From assembly GCA_938092005.1 (NCBI GenBank), contig CALKOU010000001.1, positions 1-64,000 on the forward strand: 64,000 nucleotides of DNA, read 5' to 3'. The stretch's first letter is position 1. Every line of letters begins with the position of its first letter. The notes beneath the pieces are model-generated. The model was given only the letters and a program-made list of their open reading frames with translations, had not been told where the DNA came from and made no database searches. This document shows positions 23,637-46,109 of the stretch, in pieces. The position numbers and the translations under genes are program-made. Source of the stretch: an uncultured Flavobacteriaceae bacterium (lineage in GTDB: Bacteria > Bacteroidota > Bacteroidia > Flavobacteriales > Flavobacteriaceae).

Positions 23637-23670
23637 TTAAAAAGTAGCCACTAAGTGAAACTTTTTGTTA

Positions 23671-23678
23671 TATATTTG
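23671..23678 (+). promoter_or_regulatory. Bacteroidota -7 element TATATTTG before higB-like gene
   Basis: TAnnTTTG ending 4 nt before the ATG at 23683. Confidence 0.45.
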
Positions 23679-23682
23679 TAAT

Positions 23683-24027
23683 ATGCACCCTAAAAAGTAC
23701 AGAAGCGTTATCTTCTACAAAACCTATTTTGAAGATTTCTTTGTTGAACAGCAACAAAACGTAAAAGATAAAATTATATGGACTATTGAGCTCATTGAAG
23801 AAATTAAAAAAGTTCCTGTGAAATATTTAAAACATATAACATCAACAGAAGGTCTTTATGAAATAAGAGTACAATTAGCACGTGATGTATTTAGAATATT
23901 TTGCTTTTTTGATAAAGAGAAATTAATTGTCTTAGCAAATGGGTTTCATAAAAAAACACAAAAGACACCAAGAAGAGAAATTAGTAAAGCATTAAAAATT
24001 AAAAAAGAATATGAAAGCAAAAAATAA
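23683..24027 (+). CDS. RelE/HigB-family toxin (phage Gp49-like)
   Basis: F..QQQNVKDKIIWTIELIEEIKKVPVKYLKHITSTEGLYEIRVQLARDVFRIFCFFDKEKLIVLANGFHKKTQKTP. Confidence 0.85.
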   Translation: MHPKKYRSVIFYKTYFEDFFVEQQQNVKDKIIWTIELIEEIKKVPVKYLKHITSTEGLYEIRVQLARDVFRIFCFFDKEKLIVLANGFHKKTQKTPRREISKALKIKKEYESKK

Positions 24028-24313
24028 TATACAGAATCTTGAACAATTTAAAGACAAGCATTATGGTAAACGTGGAACAGAAAAGCGTGACACATTAGAA
24101 AAAGGATTTGAAAGTTTTAAGCTTGGCAGCTTACTATTTGAAGCAAGAAAGGAAAAGGGAATGACACAGGCCGAACTTGCCGAAAAGGTTGGAACAACAA
24201 AGTCTTACATCTCAAAAATTGAAAATAACGTGAAAGAAGCAAGACTGTCAACTTTACAAAAAATAATTGAACTCGGTCTAGATGGGCAATTAGAACTCTC
24301 AGTAAAATTGTAA
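24011..24313 (+). CDS. HigA-like XRE-family antitoxin
   Basis: HTH: LLFEARKEKGMTQAELAEKVGTTKSYISKIENNVKEARLSTLQKI; overlaps the toxin gene. Confidence 0.85.
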   Translation: MKAKNNIQNLEQFKDKHYGKRGTEKRDTLEKGFESFKLGSLLFEARKEKGMTQAELAEKVGTTKSYISKIENNVKEARLSTLQKIIELGLDGQLELSVKL

Positions 24314-24333: not shown

Positions 24334-24390
24334 GGTATTGCCTAATCACTACTACCTACTCACTACTCACTATTGCCTACTGCCTAGCTT
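24334..24390. repeat. degenerate CCTACTG/CACTACT repeats
   Basis: gtattgcctaatcactactacctactcactactcactattgcctactgcctagc. Confidence 0.55.
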
Positions 24391-24970
24391 CCAACACACC
24401 TACCACGTCTTGAAGTGAAAAGCCTTTGGCTTGAAGTAGAATCAGCCAGTGGAATAATAAATCAGCACTTTCGTTTAAGAACAAATTATCGTCATTATCC
24501 TTAGCCTCAATAACGGTTTCCACCGCTTCTTCACCCACTTTTTGCGAAATCTTGTTAATGCCTTTAGCAAATAGGCTCGCCACATAACTTTTGTCAGTAG
24601 GGTTGTTTTTACGATCGGCAATGGTAGCTTCTAAGGCAGATATAAACCCATAAGAAGGTGTATTCGCCATATTCCAACATGTATCGCTTCCGGTGTGACA
24701 GGTTGGACCTTTTGGGTTTGCTTGTATGAGCAATGCGTCGTTGTCACAATCCACCGCCATAGACACGAATTCCAAAACATGACCACTCTCCTCACCTTTT
24801 GTCCAAAGGCGATTTTTACTACGGCTAAAAAACGTTACATGTTGCGAAGCTTTGGTTTTAGCAACCGCTTCGGCATTCATATAACCTAGCATAAGTACGG
24901 CTTTTGTCTGTGCATCTTGCACAATGGCAGGAACCAGTCCGTCGGGGTGTTTGCTGTAATCTATAGTCAT
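24377..24970 (-). CDS. hisIE: bifunctional phosphoribosyl-AMP cyclohydrolase / phosphoribosyl-ATP pyrophosphatase
   Basis: [43 protein letters not shown]-terminal [14 protein letters not shown]. Confidence 0.93.
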
Positions 24971-25719
24971 CTTACGGGTATTTTGTGTTGACGTAAATAT
25001 GTTTTGAGATCGGGTATGCCGATTTCCTTAAAATGAAATACACTTGCCGCTAAAGCAGCATCGGCATTTCCGTGTGCAAAGGTATCAACAAAATGAGTCA
25101 TATCCCCTGCTCCACCTGAAGCAATGATAGGAACACTGACCGTTTCACTTAATTTTTTTAGGGCTGCATTGGCAAAACCTTGCTTAGTACCATCGTGATC
25201 CATCGATGTAAAGAGCAATTCGCCTGCACCACGATCAACGGCCTCTTTGGCCCATTCAAACAATTTACGATCTGTTGGTAATTTACCACCTACCAAGTGC
25301 ACTACCCATTCGTTTTCTAGTTGTTTGGCGTCTATGGCAACAACAATGCACTGTGTGCCAAACCGTTGTGCAAGTTCACTAATAAGTTCTGGACGGCGTA
25401 CTGCTGAGGAATTGACAGAAACTTTATCTGCTCCATTATCCAATAATATGGCCACATCATCAACTGCGCTAATACCGCCACCTACCGTAAAGGGAATATC
25501 AATAGCACGCGCAACATCACGTACCATTTTGGCTAGTGTTTTACGCTTTTCTTCAGATGCTGATATATCTAAAAAAACCAATTCGTCGGCACCTTCCTGG
25601 GCATAACGTGCTGCCAATTCTACTGGATCGCCAGCATCACGTAACGACACAAAATTGACGCCCTTAACAGTACGTCCGTCTTTGATGTCTAAACAGGGAA
25701 TGATCCGTTTGGTAAGCAT
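24967..25719 (-). CDS. hisF: imidazole glycerol phosphate synthase subunit HisF
   Basis: [23 protein letters not shown]. Confidence 0.95.
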
Positions 25720-25720
25720 A

Positions 25721-26449
25721 TTAGTTTTGTTCCAATTGATAGTTTTCCAATTCCTTTAATGCTATTTTACCTTCGTAAATAGCTTTTCCAATAACGGCTG
25801 CTGAACAACCCAGTTCAGCACATTGGTAAATGTCGTCCATGGTCGTGATGCCCCCAGAAGCAATAAGTGAAATATCAGGCATGGCTGCTATCAGTTCATA
25901 GTACAATTCCAACGAAGGTCCTGCAAGCATGCCATCTTTTGCAACATCGGTGCAAAGCACGTGTTCAAAGCCTTTTTGAGTGTAATTCTTTACAAAATCC
26001 AGCACGTCTATACCAGAATCCTGCTCCCAACCATGTGTAGCAATACGGCGGTCTTTAGCATCGGCACCTAAAATGATTTTTTCTGTACCAAAAGTTTCCA
26101 ACCATTCCAAAACTAATTCGGGGTTACTAACTGCAATGCTTCCTAAGGTCACCATGGATGCGCCACAATCAAAAGCCGTTTGTAAATCAATTTTAGATTT
26201 GATACCGCCTCCAAAATCAACCTGTAACGACGTTTTGGTAGCAATAGCTTCTAAGACCTTACTGTTTACGATATGTTTTGCACGTGCACCGTCTAAATCT
26301 ACTACATGGACATGCGTAAGGCCTGCCCCCTCAAAGGCTTTAGCTACTTCCAATGGCGATTTGCTATACACCTTTTTGGTGTCGTAATCCCCTTTGGTAA
26401 GACGTACACATTGTCCGTTGATGATATCGATAGCAGGAACTAAAATCAT
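25721..26449 (-). CDS. hisA: phosphoribosylformimino-5-aminoimidazole carboxamide ribotide isomerase
   Basis: [43 protein letters not shown]. Confidence 0.95.
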
Positions 26450-27024
26450 AGTGCTAAAAAGTTTTGTAAAAGGGTTGCGCCCACAACACCGCTTTTTTCA
26501 GGGTGGAACTGTGTGCCGTAAAAATTATTTTTTGAAAGTGCTGCTGCAAAGGGTACTGCATATGTGCATGCTCCCACCACATCAGCGTTAGGTTTTGCAT
26601 AGTAGCTATGTACCATATAAAAATGACTGTTTGAAGGAATGCCTTGAAATAATGCCTCTTTACCATCTACCGTGTTCCATCCCATATGCGGAACGTTTAA
26701 ATTGGTTTTAAAGCGCACCACGTCTGTATTAAAAACACCCAAACCCTTTGTGTTTCCCTCCTCAGAGTGATTACACATCAATTGCATGCCCAAACAAATC
26801 CCTAACACCGGCTGTGTGAGCGTTGGAATTAGTGTGTCCAGGCCCGTAGCTTGAAGCTTTTCCATGGCAGAGCTTGCCTCGCCCACACCTGGAAAAATAA
26901 CATGCGTTGCCTTTTTAATTTCCACAGCGTCATGACTTAGTGTTGCGGTAGCACCCAAGCGCTCAAGCGCAAAACGAATGCTTTGAATATTACCCGCACC
27001 GTAATCAATAATGACTACATTCAT
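26446..27024 (-). CDS. hisH: imidazole glycerol phosphate synthase subunit HisH
   Basis: [43 protein letters not shown]. Confidence 0.95.
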
Positions 27025-28145
27025 AATTGTCCTTTGGTTGAGGGTAATATTAGTTTTTCAGCATCACGTTTGATGGCCATTTTAATGGCTTTTGCAAACG
27101 CTTTAAAAATAGCTTCAATTTTGTGGTGTTCATTGTGCCCTTCAGCCTTTATGTTCAAATTCGCTTTTGCACCATCAGCAAAGGATTTGAAGAAATGAAA
27201 AAACATTTCGGTTGGCATTTTACCAATCATTTCCCGTTTAAATTTCGCATCCCACATCAACCACGCGCGTCCACCAAAATCAATAGCTACTTGTGCTAAG
27301 CAATCGTCCATTGGCAAGCAAAAACCATAGCGTTCCATGCCAAGTTTATTGCCAAGCGCATCGGCAAAGGCCTCACCTAAAGCAATGGCCGTGTCTTCAA
27401 TCGTGTGGTGTTCGTCTACTTCTAAATCGCCTTTGGTTGTAAGCGTTATATCAATTCCGCCGTGGCGTGCCAACTGATCTAGCATATGATCAAAAAAGAC
27501 AATGCCTGTGTCAATTATACTTTTCCCCGTACCATCTAAATTTAGCTCAATATTGATAGCTGTTTCTTTAGTAGTACGAGCATGTGTGGCCCTACGCGCA
27601 CCTGCTTTTAACAGCGTATAAATGGCTTCCCATGTCTGCGTCTGTAAGGCAATGGTTTCCGCAAGCTCTTCGGAGATATTTTCTGCAAGGCGTGAATCGT
27701 TTTGGAGTAATATTCCTTTTGCATTTAGATTTTTTGCCAATTGCATGTCGCTCATGCGATCACCAATAACAAACGAGTTTACTAGATCATAATCTGGATT
27801 ATCCAAATAGGCTGTAAGCATTCCGGTTTTTGGTTTTCGCGTGGGTGCATGGTCTGCTGGTAAACTTTTATCAATATACACTTGATCAAAAGCAATGCCC
27901 TCGTTTTTGAGTGCTGTTATCAAAAAGTCATGCGTAGGCCAAAAGGTGTTTTCTGGAAAAGAATCCGTTCCCAAACCATCTTGATTGGTTACCATAACCA
28001 ATTCATAGTCGAGTTCCTTTGCAATACGCCCCAAATATTGAAATACACCGGGATAAAAAACAAGTTTGTCTAAGGCATCCAGTTGGTAATTTTCAGGCTC
28101 TAATGCCAGCGTACCGTCTCGGTCAATAAAAAGTACTTTTCTCAT
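27021..28145 (-). CDS. hisB: bifunctional histidinol-phosphatase / imidazoleglycerol-phosphate dehydratase
   Basis: N-terminal [15 protein letters not shown] phosphatase; C-terminal [35 protein letters not shown]. Confidence 0.95.
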
Positions 28146-29194
28146 ATCGATATGGATTTACATGCACGAATAAGTTGATCATTTTCTTGTGGTGTCCCCA
28201 CCGTTATACGAATACAATTGTTGCAGTTTTCTTGTGTAGAGCGGTCACGAGTTACGATGTTTTTAGCTAATAATTCACGGTAACGTTTTTGGGCATCATC
28301 TACGCGGATAAGCAAAAAGTTTGCATCGGATGGGTAAATAGTTTCTACCCAAGAAACAGCTGTTAAGGCTGACTTCAGACGGTTACGTTCTTCAATAATT
28401 TCGTTGATTTGAGATGTATATTTTTCTGTATTCGAAAGTTCTACAATGGCGCGTTCTTGACTAAGCGCGTTGATGTTATACGGAGGTTTAATACTTCTTA
28501 AAAGCGAAATAATTTCAGGGCTTGCCATGGCAATGCCCAAGCGCAATCCTGCAAGACCATACGCCTTAGAAAGGGTTTGGGTAACAATTAAGTTAGGGTA
28601 TTGTGCTAACGCAGTACTCCAACTGGGGGTGTCAGTGAAATCAATATAGGCTTCGTCAATTACCACAACCCCGTCAAAGCCTTCTAAAATACGGATGATG
28701 TCTGCGTTTGAAAATAGATTACCACTTGGATTGTTGGGACTACAGAAAAACAACGCTTTTGTCTTTGGTGTTATTGAAGAAAGGATGTTATCCGTTCTAA
28801 GTTGGAAATTGTTGTCAAGCGGCACTTCAATCATGCCCACGCTATTAATATTTGCCAAAACGGCATACATACCGTATGTAGGCGGTAAAATCACGATTTC
28901 ATCTTGATAAGGAATGCAAAATGCACGAAATATCAAATCTAACACTTCATCACTTCCATTTCCAAGTAACAGCTGATTCGTATTGCAATTGCGCAAGTTG
29001 GCAATCACTTTTTTTAACGCTGTTTGATTGGGATCTGGATAACGGTTAACATTTGTGGCATTAGGGTTCTCATTAGCATCTAAAAACGTCCACTCCCCTT
29101 CTGTTGCTGTAAAGGTGTCTCGTGCCGAGGTATAAGGTGCTAAAGCCATCATTTCAGGTCTTGCCCATTTCGATAAGTCGAACGTCTTAGCCAT
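28142..29194 (-). CDS. hisC: histidinol-phosphate aminotransferase
   Basis: [40 protein letters not shown]. Confidence 0.95.
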
Positions 29195-30473
29195 TATTTA
29201 CGTCTTTTAACCGCAAACTAACGGCATTTTTGTGAGCAAAAAGCCCTTCGGCTTCTGCCATAACTTCAATACTTGGTCCTAATTTTTGAATTCCATCTGC
29301 ACTAATACGCTGGTAGGTAATTGCTTTTGTAAATGCATCAAGGTTTACGCCGCTATATTGTTTGGTATACCCATTGGTAGGAAGTGTGTGGTTGGTGCCT
29401 GAGGCATAATCCCCAGCACTTTCGGGCGTAAAGTTTCCAATAAAAACAGATCCAGCATTGATGATTCCATCAACAAATACCGTTTCGTTTTTTGCACAAA
29501 CAATATAATGTTCTGGGCCATAGGCATTAATAAAGTCCAATGCTTCTGACTCATCATCAAAACAAACGGCAAGTGAATTGGCAAGTGCTGCTTTGGCAAT
29601 CGCTTTTCGAGGTAGTGCGGGAAGTTGTTTCTCAATTTCCGCATTCACATCACTAACAATAGCGGGTGACATAGCCACAAGTATTACTTGACTATCAACG
29701 CCGTGTTCGGCTTGTGAAAGCAAATCAGCAGCCACGTAAGCGGGGTTTGCAGTACGATCTGCAACAACCAACAGCTCAGAAGGTCCGGCAGGCATATCAA
29801 TTGCCGTTTGGTACTGAGTTGCCTTTTGCTTAGCAACGGTTACATATTGATTCCCAGGGCCAAATATCTTGTAAACCTTAGGAATAGTTACAGTACCAAA
29901 AGTCATGGCTGCTATGGCTTGAATACCTCCTACTTGTGCTACAAGAGTTACCCCACATTTGTGAGCAGCATAGCGAATCGCGGCTGGTACACCTGATTCG
30001 TTGGGCGGCGTACAAAGTACAATTTGTTTACAACCAGCTATCTGGGCTGGAATCGCTAACATCAGCACGGTAGAAAATAGCGGGGCTGTTCCTCCTGGAA
30101 TATATATTCCCACTTTTTCGATAGGTTTTTTTTCTTGCCAACAAGCAACACCTTCCATGGTATTAAGCTGTACAGGAGCTGTCTTTTGGGCAGTGTGAAA
30201 CGCATAAATGTTGGCATAGGCCACATCAATAGCAGCTACCAGTTCAGTAGACAATTCTTCTTGAGCAGTAGCTAATGCATGTTGCGAAACAAAAAGGGTG
30301 TTGGTTGTGACCCTGTCAAATTTTTGGCTGTAGGCGCGCACTGCTTCATCTCCTTGTATTCGAACGGCATTAAAAACCTCCTTCACAATGGGTTCAACAG
30401 ACGAAAAATCAGCTGTTGGACGTTGCGTTAAGGACTCCCACTGCTTACGAGATGGATTAACAACTTGTTTCAT
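29187..30473 (-). CDS. hisD: histidinol dehydrogenase
   Basis: VGIYIPGGTAPLFSTVLM, KIFGPGNQYVTVAKQ, IDMPAGPSELLVVAD, LLSQAEHGVDSQ. Confidence 0.95.
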   Translation of the reverse strand: MKQVVNPSRKQWESLTQRPTADFSSVEPIVKEVFNAVRIQGDEAVRAYSQKFDRVTTNTLFVSQHALATAQEELSTELVAAIDVAYANIYAFHTAQKTAPVQLNTMEGVACWQEKKPIEKVGIYIPGGTAPLFSTVLMLAIPAQIAGCKQIVLCTPPNESGVPAAIRYAAHKCGVTLVAQVGGIQAIAAMTFGTVTIPKVYKIFGPGNQYVTVAKQKATQYQTAIDMPAGPSELLVVADRTANPAYVAADLLSQAEHGVDSQVILVAMSPAIVSDVNAEIEKQLPALPRKAIAKAALANSLAVCFDDESEALDFINAYGPEHYIVCAKNETVFVDGIINAGSVFIGNFTPESAGDYASGTNHTLPTNGYTKQYSGVNLDAFTKAITYQRISADGIQKLGPSIEVMAEAEGLFAHKNAVSLRLKDVNNG

Positions 30474-31336
30474 TACTGTATCATTCGTTCAATAGGACAA
30501 ACTAAAATATCACATGCACCAGCAGCCTTTAACGCATCTACCATTTGCCAAAATGTATTTTTATCGACAACAGAGTGCAGCGAACTCCAACCTTCTTCTA
30601 CTAACGGCATTACCGTTGGGCTTTTAAGCACGGGTAACATGTTTGAAATTGTCTCAATGGCATCGTTTGGGACATTCATAATGACATACCTAGAATTTTT
30701 ACCAGCGTTTACCGCATTGATACGGAACATCAGGGTATCCAAAATCTCTTGTTTCTCGTTCGATAGTGCTTTACCATTAACCAGTACGGCTTCCGATTTA
30801 AACAGCACTTCAACTTCTTTTAAATTGTTTTTAAAGAGCGTAGAGCCACTCGATACAATATCACAAATAGCATCCGACAACCCAATGTTAGGTGCAATTT
30901 CAACCGAACCGTTAATGATGTGCAAATCTGCCGCAACGCCCCATTGATCTAGGTATTTTTGAACGGTTTTGGGATATGATGTGGCAATCTTCTTTCCCGC
31001 CAAGTCTTGAAAGCTATTGTACTCCGCTTCTTTAGGTACAGCTATCGAAACACGACATTTTGAAAAACCAAGTGATGTAAGGGTTTTAAGATCTTCCCCT
31101 TTTTCAATCAATAAATTCTCTCCAACAATAGCCAAATCCACGACTCCATCTCTAAGATATTGCGGAATGTCGCCATTGCGCAAGTAATAGATGTCAATGG
31201 GGAAATTAGATGCCGACGTTTTAAGTTGGTCTTTTCCATTGTTAATAGATATGCCACAGTCTTTAAGCAGCTTTAATGATTCTTCATTAAGCCGTCCTGA
31301 CTTTTGAATTGCAATTCGTATGTTCTCTTTCTTCAT
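30473..31336 (-). CDS. hisG: ATP phosphoribosyltransferase
   Basis: IRIAIQKSGRLNEESLKLLKDCG, VDLAIVGENLL, KIATSYPKTVQKYL. Confidence 0.95.
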   Translation of the reverse strand: MKKENIRIAIQKSGRLNEESLKLLKDCGISINNGKDQLKTSASNFPIDIYYLRNGDIPQYLRDGVVDLAIVGENLLIEKGEDLKTLTSLGFSKCRVSIAVPKEAEYNSFQDLAGKKIATSYPKTVQKYLDQWGVAADLHIINGSVEIAPNIGLSDAICDIVSSGSTLFKNNLKEVEVLFKSEAVLVNGKALSNEKQEILDTLMFRINAVNAGKNSRYVIMNVPNDAIETISNMLPVLKSPTVMPLVEEGWSSLHSVVDKNTFWQMVDALKAAGACDILVCPIERMIQ

Positions 31337-31340
31337 AATT

Positions 31341-31377
31341 AAAACAAAAAAACCCGTTTGATACGTTCAAACGGGTT
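31341..31377 (-). terminator. rho-independent terminator of his leader (attenuator)
   Basis: Minus strand AACCCGTTTGA-ACGTA-TCAAACGGGTTTTTTTGTTTT: 11-bp perfect stem plus U-tract ending 5 nt upstream of the hisG start. Confidence 0.85.
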
Positions 31378-31400
31378 AGTCGATAGTACATATACCTCAC

Positions 31401-31454
31401 CTAGCTCGTTTGAAACGATGACTTTGAATGATGGTGTGTATGTGTGTTATTCAT
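31401..31454 (-). CDS. his operon leader peptide MNNTHTHHHSKSSFQTS
   Basis: Minus strand ATG AAT AAC ACA CAT ACA CAC CAT CAT TCA AAG TCA TCG TTT CAA ACG AGC TAG: 4 His among codons 5-9, directly upstream of terminator and hisG. Confidence 0.85.
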   Translation of the reverse strand: MNNTHTHHHSKSSFQTS

Positions 31455-31487
31455 TTGCTTGCAAATATCGAACTTTTTTTTCAAAGT

Positions 31488-32306
31488 TTATTGATTTCCT
31501 AAAATAAGTGGCAACCCATCTTTGGAGTTTCCAATAACAATCACTTTGGCATTGGGGGATTCTGATAATTTAATGGTCGCCTCAATTCCCTTTTCCTTAA
31601 GAATATTGGATGTCAATGAAGCCGCTAAAATACGGTTTGCAACAGCTTTACCTTCGGCATCAATGCGAACTTTCTCTGCTTCTTGACGTGCTTTTTCTAA
31701 ACGGAACTCATACTCAAGTGCTTCTTGCTCTTGGGTAAGCTTTCGCTGGATAGCTTCTTTGATAGATGCAGGAAGTGTAACATCACGTACCAATACTGCA
31801 TTTAACTGCACATGTTGACCTTCTACTTTACGTTTGGTTTCCTCAAAAATTTCATTTTGAATGGCATCACGCTTCGTGGAATACAATTGTTCGGGTGTAT
31901 AACGTCCAATTACAGAACGTGCAACAGCACGAATTTCTGGCGCAATTACGATGTTAAGATAATTTTCACCTTTGGTTTTGTGCAACATACCCAGTTCATC
32001 AATCTTAGGTTGGTATAAAACAGAAACGTCTAATGAAATTTCAAGACCGTTTGAAGAAAGTACGCGCATGTCGCTTTCAAATTCTTCTTGCTGTTTAATG
32101 TTATAGGTATACACTCGATTCCACGGAGCGATAAGGTGAAACCCTTCACTTAGTGGTGCGTCAGTGGTAACGGTACCACCTCCAAAGCGTTTCCAAACCA
32201 CACCTGCTTCACCATATTGGATGTTTACGTATGATTTTGAAAGAAAAATAAAGCTTGCAATGATAAGAACTACTATGGGTAGTCCGAGTTTTGGGAGTTT
32301 TTCCAT
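31488..32306 (-). CDS. SPFH/prohibitin-family protein
   Basis: N-terminal TM, INVQYGEAGVVWKRFGG, RSVIGRYTPEQLYSTKRDAIQNEI, EQEALEYEFRLEKARQEAEKVRIDAEGKA; start set at ATG 32306. Confidence 0.88.
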   Translation of the reverse strand: MEKLPKLGLPIVVLIIASFIFLSKSYVNIQYGEAGVVWKRFGGGTVTTDAPLSEGFHLIAPWNRVYTYNIKQQEEFESDMRVLSSNGLEISLDVSVLYQPKIDELGMLHKTKGENYLNIVIAPEIRAVARSVIGRYTPEQLYSTKRDAIQNEIFEETKRKVEGQHVQLNAVLVRDVTLPASIKEAIQRKLTQEQEALEYEFRLEKARQEAEKVRIDAEGKAVANRILAASLTSNILKEKGIEATIKLSESPNAKVIVIGNSKDGLPLILGNQ

Positions 32307-43539: not shown

Positions 43540-46109
43540 GCAGAGTTCCTACTAGCATTGATGTTACCAAACAACGAACGCGTTACCATTTTTTCCATCA
43601 CATCACGTTCTTCAGCACTCAACTTACTCTGTTGAATGGTTAAAAGCGCAAACTGTTGTATGGTCAACAAAGGTTGAACTATTTCTTCTCGCATATGAAT
43701 GGAAGCCTTTCCTTCTGGCTGATCCTGCATTAAGCTATCCATTTCGGTCAATTTTAAAATATACGCTTTCGAGCGTTGGTATTCTTCGTAAATCAACTTC
43801 CAAAAATCTCCGTATTCTTCGTCTTGCTCCATGTAAGCTGTTAGTTTGAAAAATGATTTTTGCAAACTCATCATGGAATTGGAAATCAACGTTCTAAAAA
43901 AAGCATTGTTATTGTATAACTGCTGTGCCTTATCAAAGTTTCCTTCTTTATCAAGAGCTTCCAAAGCTGTTCCTACGCCATAAAAACCAGGGACATTTTG
44001 CTTTAACTGGCTCCAGCTTCCTACAAAAGGAATGGCGCGAAGCGCTGAAAAATCTAATGACTTACTTGATTTACGCTTAGAAGGACGAGAACCAATATTG
44101 GTCTTTGCATAGTATTGCAATGTGCTCATGTGCTCCAAATAAGACAAGAATTTCGGGTGTGCTTTAAAGTCTTTATAAGCTGTATAGCTTATTTCGGCTA
44201 AGGCTGTCATGGTTTCTCTGTCTGCGTCGTTTAAAACAGCTGATTTAGATGAAAAAAGACGGTTAGATATCCCCGAACTTAACAATTGCTCCAAATTATA
44301 GCGACAGGTATCCATGGTTCCAAAATTAGAACTAATTGTTTGTCCTTGCACCGTAAGTTGAATTTCATCTGCTTCTACGCTTTCTCCCATAGATGCATAA
44401 AACTGGTGTGTGTTACCACCACCACGCGCTGGTGGTCCACCACGGCCGTCAAAGAAAGCAACCTTAATACCGTGTTTACGTGAAATAGCGGTCAGTTCTT
44501 CTTTGGCTTTAAAAATACTCCAGTTTGCCATCAAATAACCACCATCTTTTGTGCCATCAGAAAATCCGAGCATAATGGTTTGTTTATCACCACGTCTACT
44601 TAGATGCTCTCGATAAACAGGATTCGAATACACCTTATCCATAACAGAAACTGCAACCTCTAAGTCGGGAATGGTTTCAAATAACGGCACCACATCCACA
44701 ACAGGAGCTTCCCAATCGCTTAAGCGAATCATAGCAAACACCTCAAAAATATTTTGTGCGGTTTGGTTATTACTGATAATGTATCGGTTACAACCTTCTT
44801 CACCATTGGTTTGTTGAATTTCACGCATAGCACGAATAGAACCCAATGCCTTGCGCACAGTTTCATCTTCAAAACTATCTGGATTTACATCTCCAACTAA
44901 AGACGTTAAAAAGGCAATACGTTCATCTTCTGAAGCACCGGTGTAGTCAAAAGTTGCGTCCGTCACACCCGATTTGTTCGTGTGATCAAGCAATGTTAAA
45001 AATGCATCGTGGTGCACACGAGAATCTTGACGAATATCAAGACTTGCAAAGTGATATCCAAATACATCAACTTTAGCGATAAAGTCTCGTAGTTCATTGG
45101 CAAATAGACCGTGATAGTTTTCTTCTACTTGCGTTAAAATTTCGTTTAAACGGTCTTTTAAATCTTGAAGCGAAATCTCTGGATCTTTATCAAGGGTGAA
45201 TATGCTGTTGTACAGCTTCTTTTCAACATCTAAAACAGCTTCTTCAATTCCAGCGAACGTTAGTCTTCTTCTAAGTTTACGGATATCACGGTAGTAGCTG
45301 CGAATGATGTTACTACGAAGTAATTGTGCTGTTTTGCGTGTAATCTCAGTCGTTACAAATGGATTACCATCTCTATCACCACCAGGCCAAAATCCAAGTT
45401 TTACCGTCTTGCCTGTCAAAGGTTCGTCTTTGAAAATGTGACGCTGTACATAAGCTTGAATTTCGCCAATTGCAGGGTAAAAAACATTTGATAAATACCA
45501 GATCAAACTTTTTGCTTCGTCAAGGGGTGTTGGTTTTTTCTTCTTAAAAAATGGGGTTCTCCCCAACTGTGCCAATAAAAGCTTGATTTCTTGTAAGTCG
45601 TTTTGCTGAATACACTTTCCTAAATCTGTTATGATACCTAATACAGAACCGGGGTAAAATTGCGTAGGGTGAGCCGTCAATACAGGGCGTACGTTAATAT
45701 CTTGCAACAATGCTTTTAACTCTTTGCCCTTTTGCTTTGATTGTGCTTCTTCTTTTAAGTTACGTAAGGTACCCACACCACTCATGTTATTAACACGAGC
45801 AAAAGCAGCATCCTCAACCGCATCAAACAACACGACCCTTCTTTCAATAAATTGAATGAAGCGAAACAGCAGATCAATTTGTTGTTTGTTATCATAGTCT
45901 GGGAAATAACGCTCAAAAAAGCGTTCCACAATGGTTTTTGGATCCAATTCGCCCTCATAACCTTCAGCACAAGAATCCGCAAAAAGCGGTAATAAAGTAG
46001 CTGTGTTGGTAATTTTAGAATAGGGTAAAGTTGAAAATATACTATCGTATAGTTTAAATTTGGAGAGCACGTTTTCTTCGAAACGTTCTAGTTTGGTGCG
46101 TGGATTCAC
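43536..46109 (-). CDS. ppc: phosphoenolpyruvate carboxylase
   Basis: VLTAHPTQ, GFWPGGDRDGNPFV, MLGFSDGTKDGGYLMANW, FFDGRGGPPARGGG. Confidence 0.93.
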   Translation of the reverse strand: MNPRTKLERFEENVLSKFKLYDSIFSTLPYSKITNTATLLPLFADSCAEGYEGELDPKTIVERFFERYFPDYDNKQQIDLLFRFIQFIERRVVLFDAVEDAAFARVNNMSGVGTLRNLKEEAQSKQKGKELKALLQDINVRPVLTAHPTQFYPGSVLGIITDLGKCIQQNDLQEIKLLLAQLGRTPFFKKKKPTPLDEAKSLIWYLSNVFYPAIGEIQAYVQRHIFKDEPLTGKTVKLGFWPGGDRDGNPFVTTEITRKTAQLLRSNIIRSYYRDIRKLRRRLTFAGIEEAVLDVEKKLYNSIFTLDKDPEISLQDLKDRLNEILTQVEENYHGLFANELRDFIAKVDVFGYHFASLDIRQDSRVHHDAFLTLLDHTNKSGVTDATFDYTGASEDERIAFLTSLVGDVNPDSFEDETVRKALGSIRAMREIQQTNGEEGCNRYIISNNQTAQNIFEVFAMIRLSDWEAPVVDVVPLFETIPDLEVAVSVMDKVYSNPVYREHLSRRGDKQTIMLGFSDGTKDGGYLMANWSIFKAKEELTAISRKHGIKVAFFDGRGGPPARGGGNTHQFYASMGESVEADEIQLTVQGQTISSNFGTMDTCRYNLEQLLSSGISNRLFSSKSAVLNDADRETMTALAEISYTAYKDFKAHPKFLSYLEHMSTLQYYAKTNIGSRPSKRKSSKSLDFSALRAIPFVGSWSQLKQNVPGFYGVGTALEALDKEGNFDKAQQLYNNNAFFRTLISNSMMSLQKSFFKLTAYMEQDEEYGDFWKLIYEEYQRSKAYILKLTEMDSLMQDQPEGKASIHMREEIVQPLLTIQQFALLTIQQSKLSAEERDVMEKMVTRSLFGNINASRNSA

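Follow-up and report, generated by a model that had tools for sequence, protein, structure and literature searches.

The histidine biosynthesis operon hisGDCBHAFIE of an uncultured marine Flavobacteriaceae bacterium is very probably controlled by a ribosome-mediated transcription attenuator, composed of a His-rich leader peptide, an antiterminator and a terminator that are conserved and covary across the Flavobacteriaceae. The element lies on the minus strand just upstream of hisG in the window, i.e., the whole 64,000-nucleotide stretch of DNA that was analysed. An earlier reading of the letters alone (the original prediction) had proposed a His-sensing attenuator of this kind, and the comparative work described below bears it out. 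Anatomy, conservation, compensatory change and geometry of the attenuator are directly observed, and its parts are as follows.

31462..31469, minus strand: GATATTTG, a Bacteroidota -7 promoter box with 5/6 positions of TAnnTTTG (sequence, scan of relatives)
31401..31454, minus strand: His-rich leader ORF, MNNTHTHHHSKSSFQTS, the his attenuator leader peptide (minus-strand reading)
31388..31443, minus strand: putative 1:2 "protector" helix, in which the His codons pair with sequence past the stop codon, with the antiterminator strand in its apex (leader MFE, pairing counts)
31407..31414, minus strand: antiterminator 5' strand TTCAAACG, which begins 13 nt past the last His codon (sequence, pairing counts, spacing)
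31366..31373, minus strand: antiterminator 3' strand CGTTTGAA, common to the terminator 5' arm (sequence, pairing counts)
31351..31377, minus strand: terminator hairpin with an 11-bp stem and 5-nt loop (sequence, folding, terminator scan, alignment pairing)
31341..31350, minus strand: terminator U-tract TTTTTGTTTT (sequence, terminator scan)
30473..31336, minus strand: hisG, first gene of the regulated operon (Pfam HisG and HisG_C)
24377..30473, minus strand: hisD, hisC, hisB (bifunctional), hisH, hisA, hisF and hisIE (ORFs and Pfam)

The leader ORF runs from an ATG at 31454 to a TAG at 31401, and the His-rich peptide that had been read from it, with all of its coordinates, is correct. The terminator consists of the arms AACCCGTTTGA and TCAAACGGGTT around the loop ACGTA, and its U-tract ends 4 nt short of the hisG ATG at 31336. 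The predicted 11-bp stem and U-tract just before hisG are present in the sequence. An independent scan of 12 kb (24–36 kb) found ten terminator-like sites, and none has a longer stem than the 11 pairs of the his hairpin, which ranks first. Also confirmed at the base level is the exact complementarity of the leader segment to the terminator 5' arm. This 8-nt complement sits inside the leader ORF and recurs in only 0.4% of leader-region shuffles. Counting both strands, 0.35 small ORFs containing HHH would be expected in 64 kb; the window holds two, one of which is on the coding strand and within 120 nt of hisG. The other, MHKTGVCYHHHALVVHHGRQRKQP, lies at 44392 on the plus strand. Downstream of the attenuator is a complete hisG-D-C-B-H-A-F-IE operon, as judged by Pfam. 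Convergent with the operon's end are two small ORFs (23665-24313, plus strand) whose translations, judged by eye, resemble a HigB/RelE-type toxin and an XRE-type antitoxin. Taken by itself, the window makes a suggestive case for attenuation, and the decisive evidence is comparative.

For that comparison, hisG loci were drawn from 16 genomes of the genus, from genomes of the family (169/200 of which carry hisG) and from named genome contigs. The original prediction had put forward leader conservation and covariation upstream of hisG in relatives as a check, and both were found. The His-rich leader, antiterminator strand and terminator occur in nearly all Flavobacteriaceae hisG loci examined, representing about 104 distinct upstream regions. 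A leader with at least three His codons is found upstream of hisG, on the same strand, at 114 of 125 loci; most of those below this threshold have two His codons or a GTG/TTG start, and one is truncated by a contig end. A script detected leader and terminator at all but three loci. L008 is truncated at the edge of its contig, whereas L061 and L105 possess both elements, the script having picked a different hairpin there. Such conservation makes a chance origin untenable. The typical leader reads M-x5-HHH(H)F-x4-QAR, its last three residues being encoded by the antiterminator strand CTCAAGCGAGG, itself a copy of the terminator 3' arm plus one extra A. What is conserved at this strand, judging from exceptional loci, is the RNA rather than the peptide. 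For example, the ORFs of L018 and L078 end before the antiterminator strand, which is kept nonetheless, and L043, L082 and L105 retain the strand in another reading frame (SNEL/SSEL).

Compensatory changes were assessed by counting pairs for each named structure in 57 representative sequences (alignment A1). These counts followed a run of RNAalifold on the full 104-sequence alignment, in which the terminator was the only helix recovered, the others being masked by alternative structures and changes of register. The terminator, the antiterminator and a third helix all beat their slid-pair controls. In the terminator, 99.7% of cells are paired (slid controls, 14–57%) and five pairs show two-sided changes. 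The antiterminator is paired in 92% of cells versus 15–51% when slid, and includes a C-G to U-A change at pair 51-116. Its two-sided covariation is modest (two pairs, equalled in 228/500 shuffles) because the sequence is so conserved. The third structure, the 1:2 helix, involves the His codons and had been missed in the original prediction, as had a feature of most relatives, namely further GG/CC antiterminator pairs beyond a single-base bulge. The 1:2 helix is paired in 66.7% of cells (33–48% slid), with 91 two-sided changes versus 52 in shuffled alignments and a covariation score of 0.235, compared to 0.163 shuffled and at most 0.142 slid. Folding z-scores average -2.4 over the 57 leaders and are -1.5, a non-significant value, for the window alone. 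We regard as the best structural evidence the loci whose terminators were replaced along with matching antiterminator strands: at L093 and at L102/L118, terminator and antiterminator changed together in independent replacements that yielded different terminators.

The geometry of the leader is likewise conserved. Exactly 13 nt separate the His run from the antiterminator strand in 82 of 99 loci; in 88 of 99, the stop codon follows the start of that strand by 11 nt. A ribosome covers ~12 nt beyond the first base of its A-site codon. The spacing therefore leaves the strand free when the ribosome is stalled at His codons and covered when the ribosome is at the stop codon. When the RNA was folded from past a stalled ribosome to the terminator 5' arm, the antiterminator formed in all 101 loci, versus 48 of 101 when the RNA was folded freely. 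In the window, the antiterminator (-13.5 kcal/mol) is weaker than the terminator (-14.7 kcal/mol), so the switch must be kinetic. Since the three helices are close in energy, the outcome should depend on the order of synthesis and the position of the ribosome.

From this arrangement we infer transcription start, translation, stalling, termination and the response to histidine. RNA polymerase would begin a few nucleotides before the leader ATG, followed by a ribosome along the leader ORF. If charged tRNA-His were plentiful, the ribosome would reach the stop codon and cover TTCAAACG, the terminator (31377-31351) would form, and transcription would stop before hisG. If charged tRNA-His were scarce, the ribosome would stall at the HTHHH codons, opening the 1:2 helix, and its leading edge would not quite reach the strand, which lies 13 nt further on. 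TTCAAACG could then pair with the terminator 5' arm before the 3' arm was synthesised, and transcription would proceed into hisG. Without translation, the 1:2 helix would compete with the antiterminator, and partial termination would be expected.

Two other explanations of the hairpin were weighed. One is that it serves only to terminate the upstream gene, insulating hisG, and that the His-rich ORF is there by coincidence. A gene for an SPFH/Band 7 protein does end on the same strand at 31488, some 35 nt upstream of the leader ATG. Inspection of the sequence and the terminator scan found no terminator other than the his hairpin between this gene and hisG. The hairpin may thus also serve the SPFH gene. 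As the whole explanation, this reading is very unlikely, given that the His-run leader, the strand spacing and the antiterminator are all conserved across the family, that a promoter box is located between the SPFH gene and the leader, and that L061, L105 and L131 retain an additional upstream terminator besides the leader.

The other explanation, translational control, would have the hairpin sequester the ribosome-binding region of hisG until opened by translation of the leader, and sequestration had also been suggested in the original prediction. In favour of the idea, the hairpin ends 14 nt from hisG in the window, but this proximity is not general: the distance is 13–19 nt in the genus and in other small genomes of marine bacteria, whereas relatives with larger genomes, whose stem and U-tract are the same, mostly have 40–147 nt. 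Sequestration is consequently unsupported as a general feature and would at best be a side effect of genome compactness, and as an account of the element translational control is very unlikely. The short distances of the small genomes are, as a separate observation, consistent with genome streamlining.

A -7 promoter box absent from the original prediction, GATATTTG, stands 7 nt before the leader ATG. Five-of-six matches are common in AT-rich DNA, and scores alone are only moderately above shuffles, with perfect boxes at 42 loci versus 5 expected. The fixed position of the box, however, is telling: in 63 of the 104 loci scanned, the best box ends 4–8 nt upstream of the leader ATG, and in another 25 the interval is 16–21 nt. 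According to a 2021 transcriptome study of Flavobacterium psychrophilum (PMC9723704), the box spans -12 to -5 in that organism, which would give a 5' UTR of 0–4 nt in the 63-locus group and 3 nt in the window. The transcript is accordingly predicted to start near 31457, ~3 nt from the leader start codon. The same study reports that leaderless mRNAs make up only 5.5% genome-wide in F. psychrophilum.

Similar arrangements occur beyond the family. In other families of the Flavobacteriales and in other Bacteroidia, a His-rich leader and a terminator are also found upstream of hisG. The terminators of these deep relatives are often unrelated in sequence (e.g., GGCTTACC...GGTAAGCC), and a leader strand is complementary to the terminator at p<0.05 in 30 of 38 uncurated loci. 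Several more distant genomes have neither a His-rich leader nor a terminator upstream of hisG. We put at about even the chance that the his attenuator represents an unnamed, deeply conserved RNA family that was present in the ancestor of Bacteroidia and kept its logic while its sequence was replaced, with a leader start codon at or within a few nucleotides of the transcript 5' end, so that the sensing ribosome would load without a Shine-Dalgarno sequence on an almost leaderless mRNA. The comparisons indicate that leader-peptide attenuation of histidine synthesis is a standing feature of the Flavobacteriaceae, and probably of Bacteroidia, organisms with different promoters and no Shine-Dalgarno sites. 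Tight coupling of transcription and translation in these bacteria is a prediction of such an attenuator.

The his operon attenuator of E. coli and Salmonella is hisL (Rfam His_leader, RF00514). Like hisL, the window element places a leader peptide with a run of His ahead of hisG and combines an antiterminator with a Rho-independent terminator, the two structures excluding each other; a 1:2 helix involving the His codons, supported for the family and weak in the window alone, would be a further resemblance. The window element differs in that its leader has four His codons rather than a run of seven, its antiterminator strand lies within the ORF, 11 nt before the stop, its transcript is predicted to start ~3 nt before the leader ATG without a Shine-Dalgarno site, and it is not matched by an Rfam covariance model. 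No match to RF00514 was found in the window even at E<=5, or in eight relatives at gathering scores; the T-box riboswitch model likewise had no match in these sequences, and the element matches no Rfam family in the window or the eight relatives. One weak match, to the Bacillus sRNA ncr1575 (E 0.024; 31 bits versus a gathering score of 60), covers mostly the terminator and was rejected. The description of the element as classic enterobacterial logic holds for the mechanism; the element lacks an Rfam match and, being probably widespread across Bacteroidia, is no oddity of one genome. The alignment could seed an Rfam family.

Candidate amino-acid attenuators are reportedly predicted in a large bioinformatic survey by Lopatovskaya, Seliverstov and Lyubetsky in 2010 (cited in PMC4833913), which is said to cover Bacteroidetes/Chlorobi. 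Another 2010 survey considered leader-peptide systems to be known only in Proteobacteria and Actinobacteria (PMC2965389). In the main text of the F. psychrophilum study, hisG is reported to be preceded by a structured 5' element that is conserved in other Flavobacteriaceae genera and has no Rfam match, and "strong clues" are noted that leader peptides upstream of amino-acid operons act in attenuation (PMC9723704). As described there, that element concerns the same gene and the same family as the one in the window; attenuators of this kind are thus already known, and their occurrence in this group is not entirely new. The structure of the hisG element, its leader sequence and its mechanism are absent from that main text, to which the present analysis adds anatomy, spacing, covariation and range. 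Family-wide conservation of the his attenuator, previously only hinted at in Flavobacteriaceae, is well supported by the comparisons given here.

A covariance model built from the element matches 91 of 101 family genomes, with top matches at hisG. Opposite-strand matches at hisG are the palindrome read backwards, and the other matches that were opened (L224-L231) are, by look, ordinary CCCGTTTGA-type terminators without His leaders. A weak match of the same model led to another attenuator with this design, located ahead of pheA in the same genome and outside the window (G000 contig C7:162978-163090, minus strand; locus L213). Its leader, MKTNTYYTSFYYFYNGR, is rich in Tyr and Phe, and is preceded by a -7 box, TACATTTG, 8 nt before the ATG and followed by a hairpin with a U-tract. 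Finally, two Flavobacteriales genomes of about 0.6 Mb (L178 and L179, family f15), probably those of insect endosymbionts, have a -7 box and a hairpin, AAAAGCTTAC...GTAAGCTTTT, upstream of hisG with no His leader, a region that looks like a decayed attenuator.
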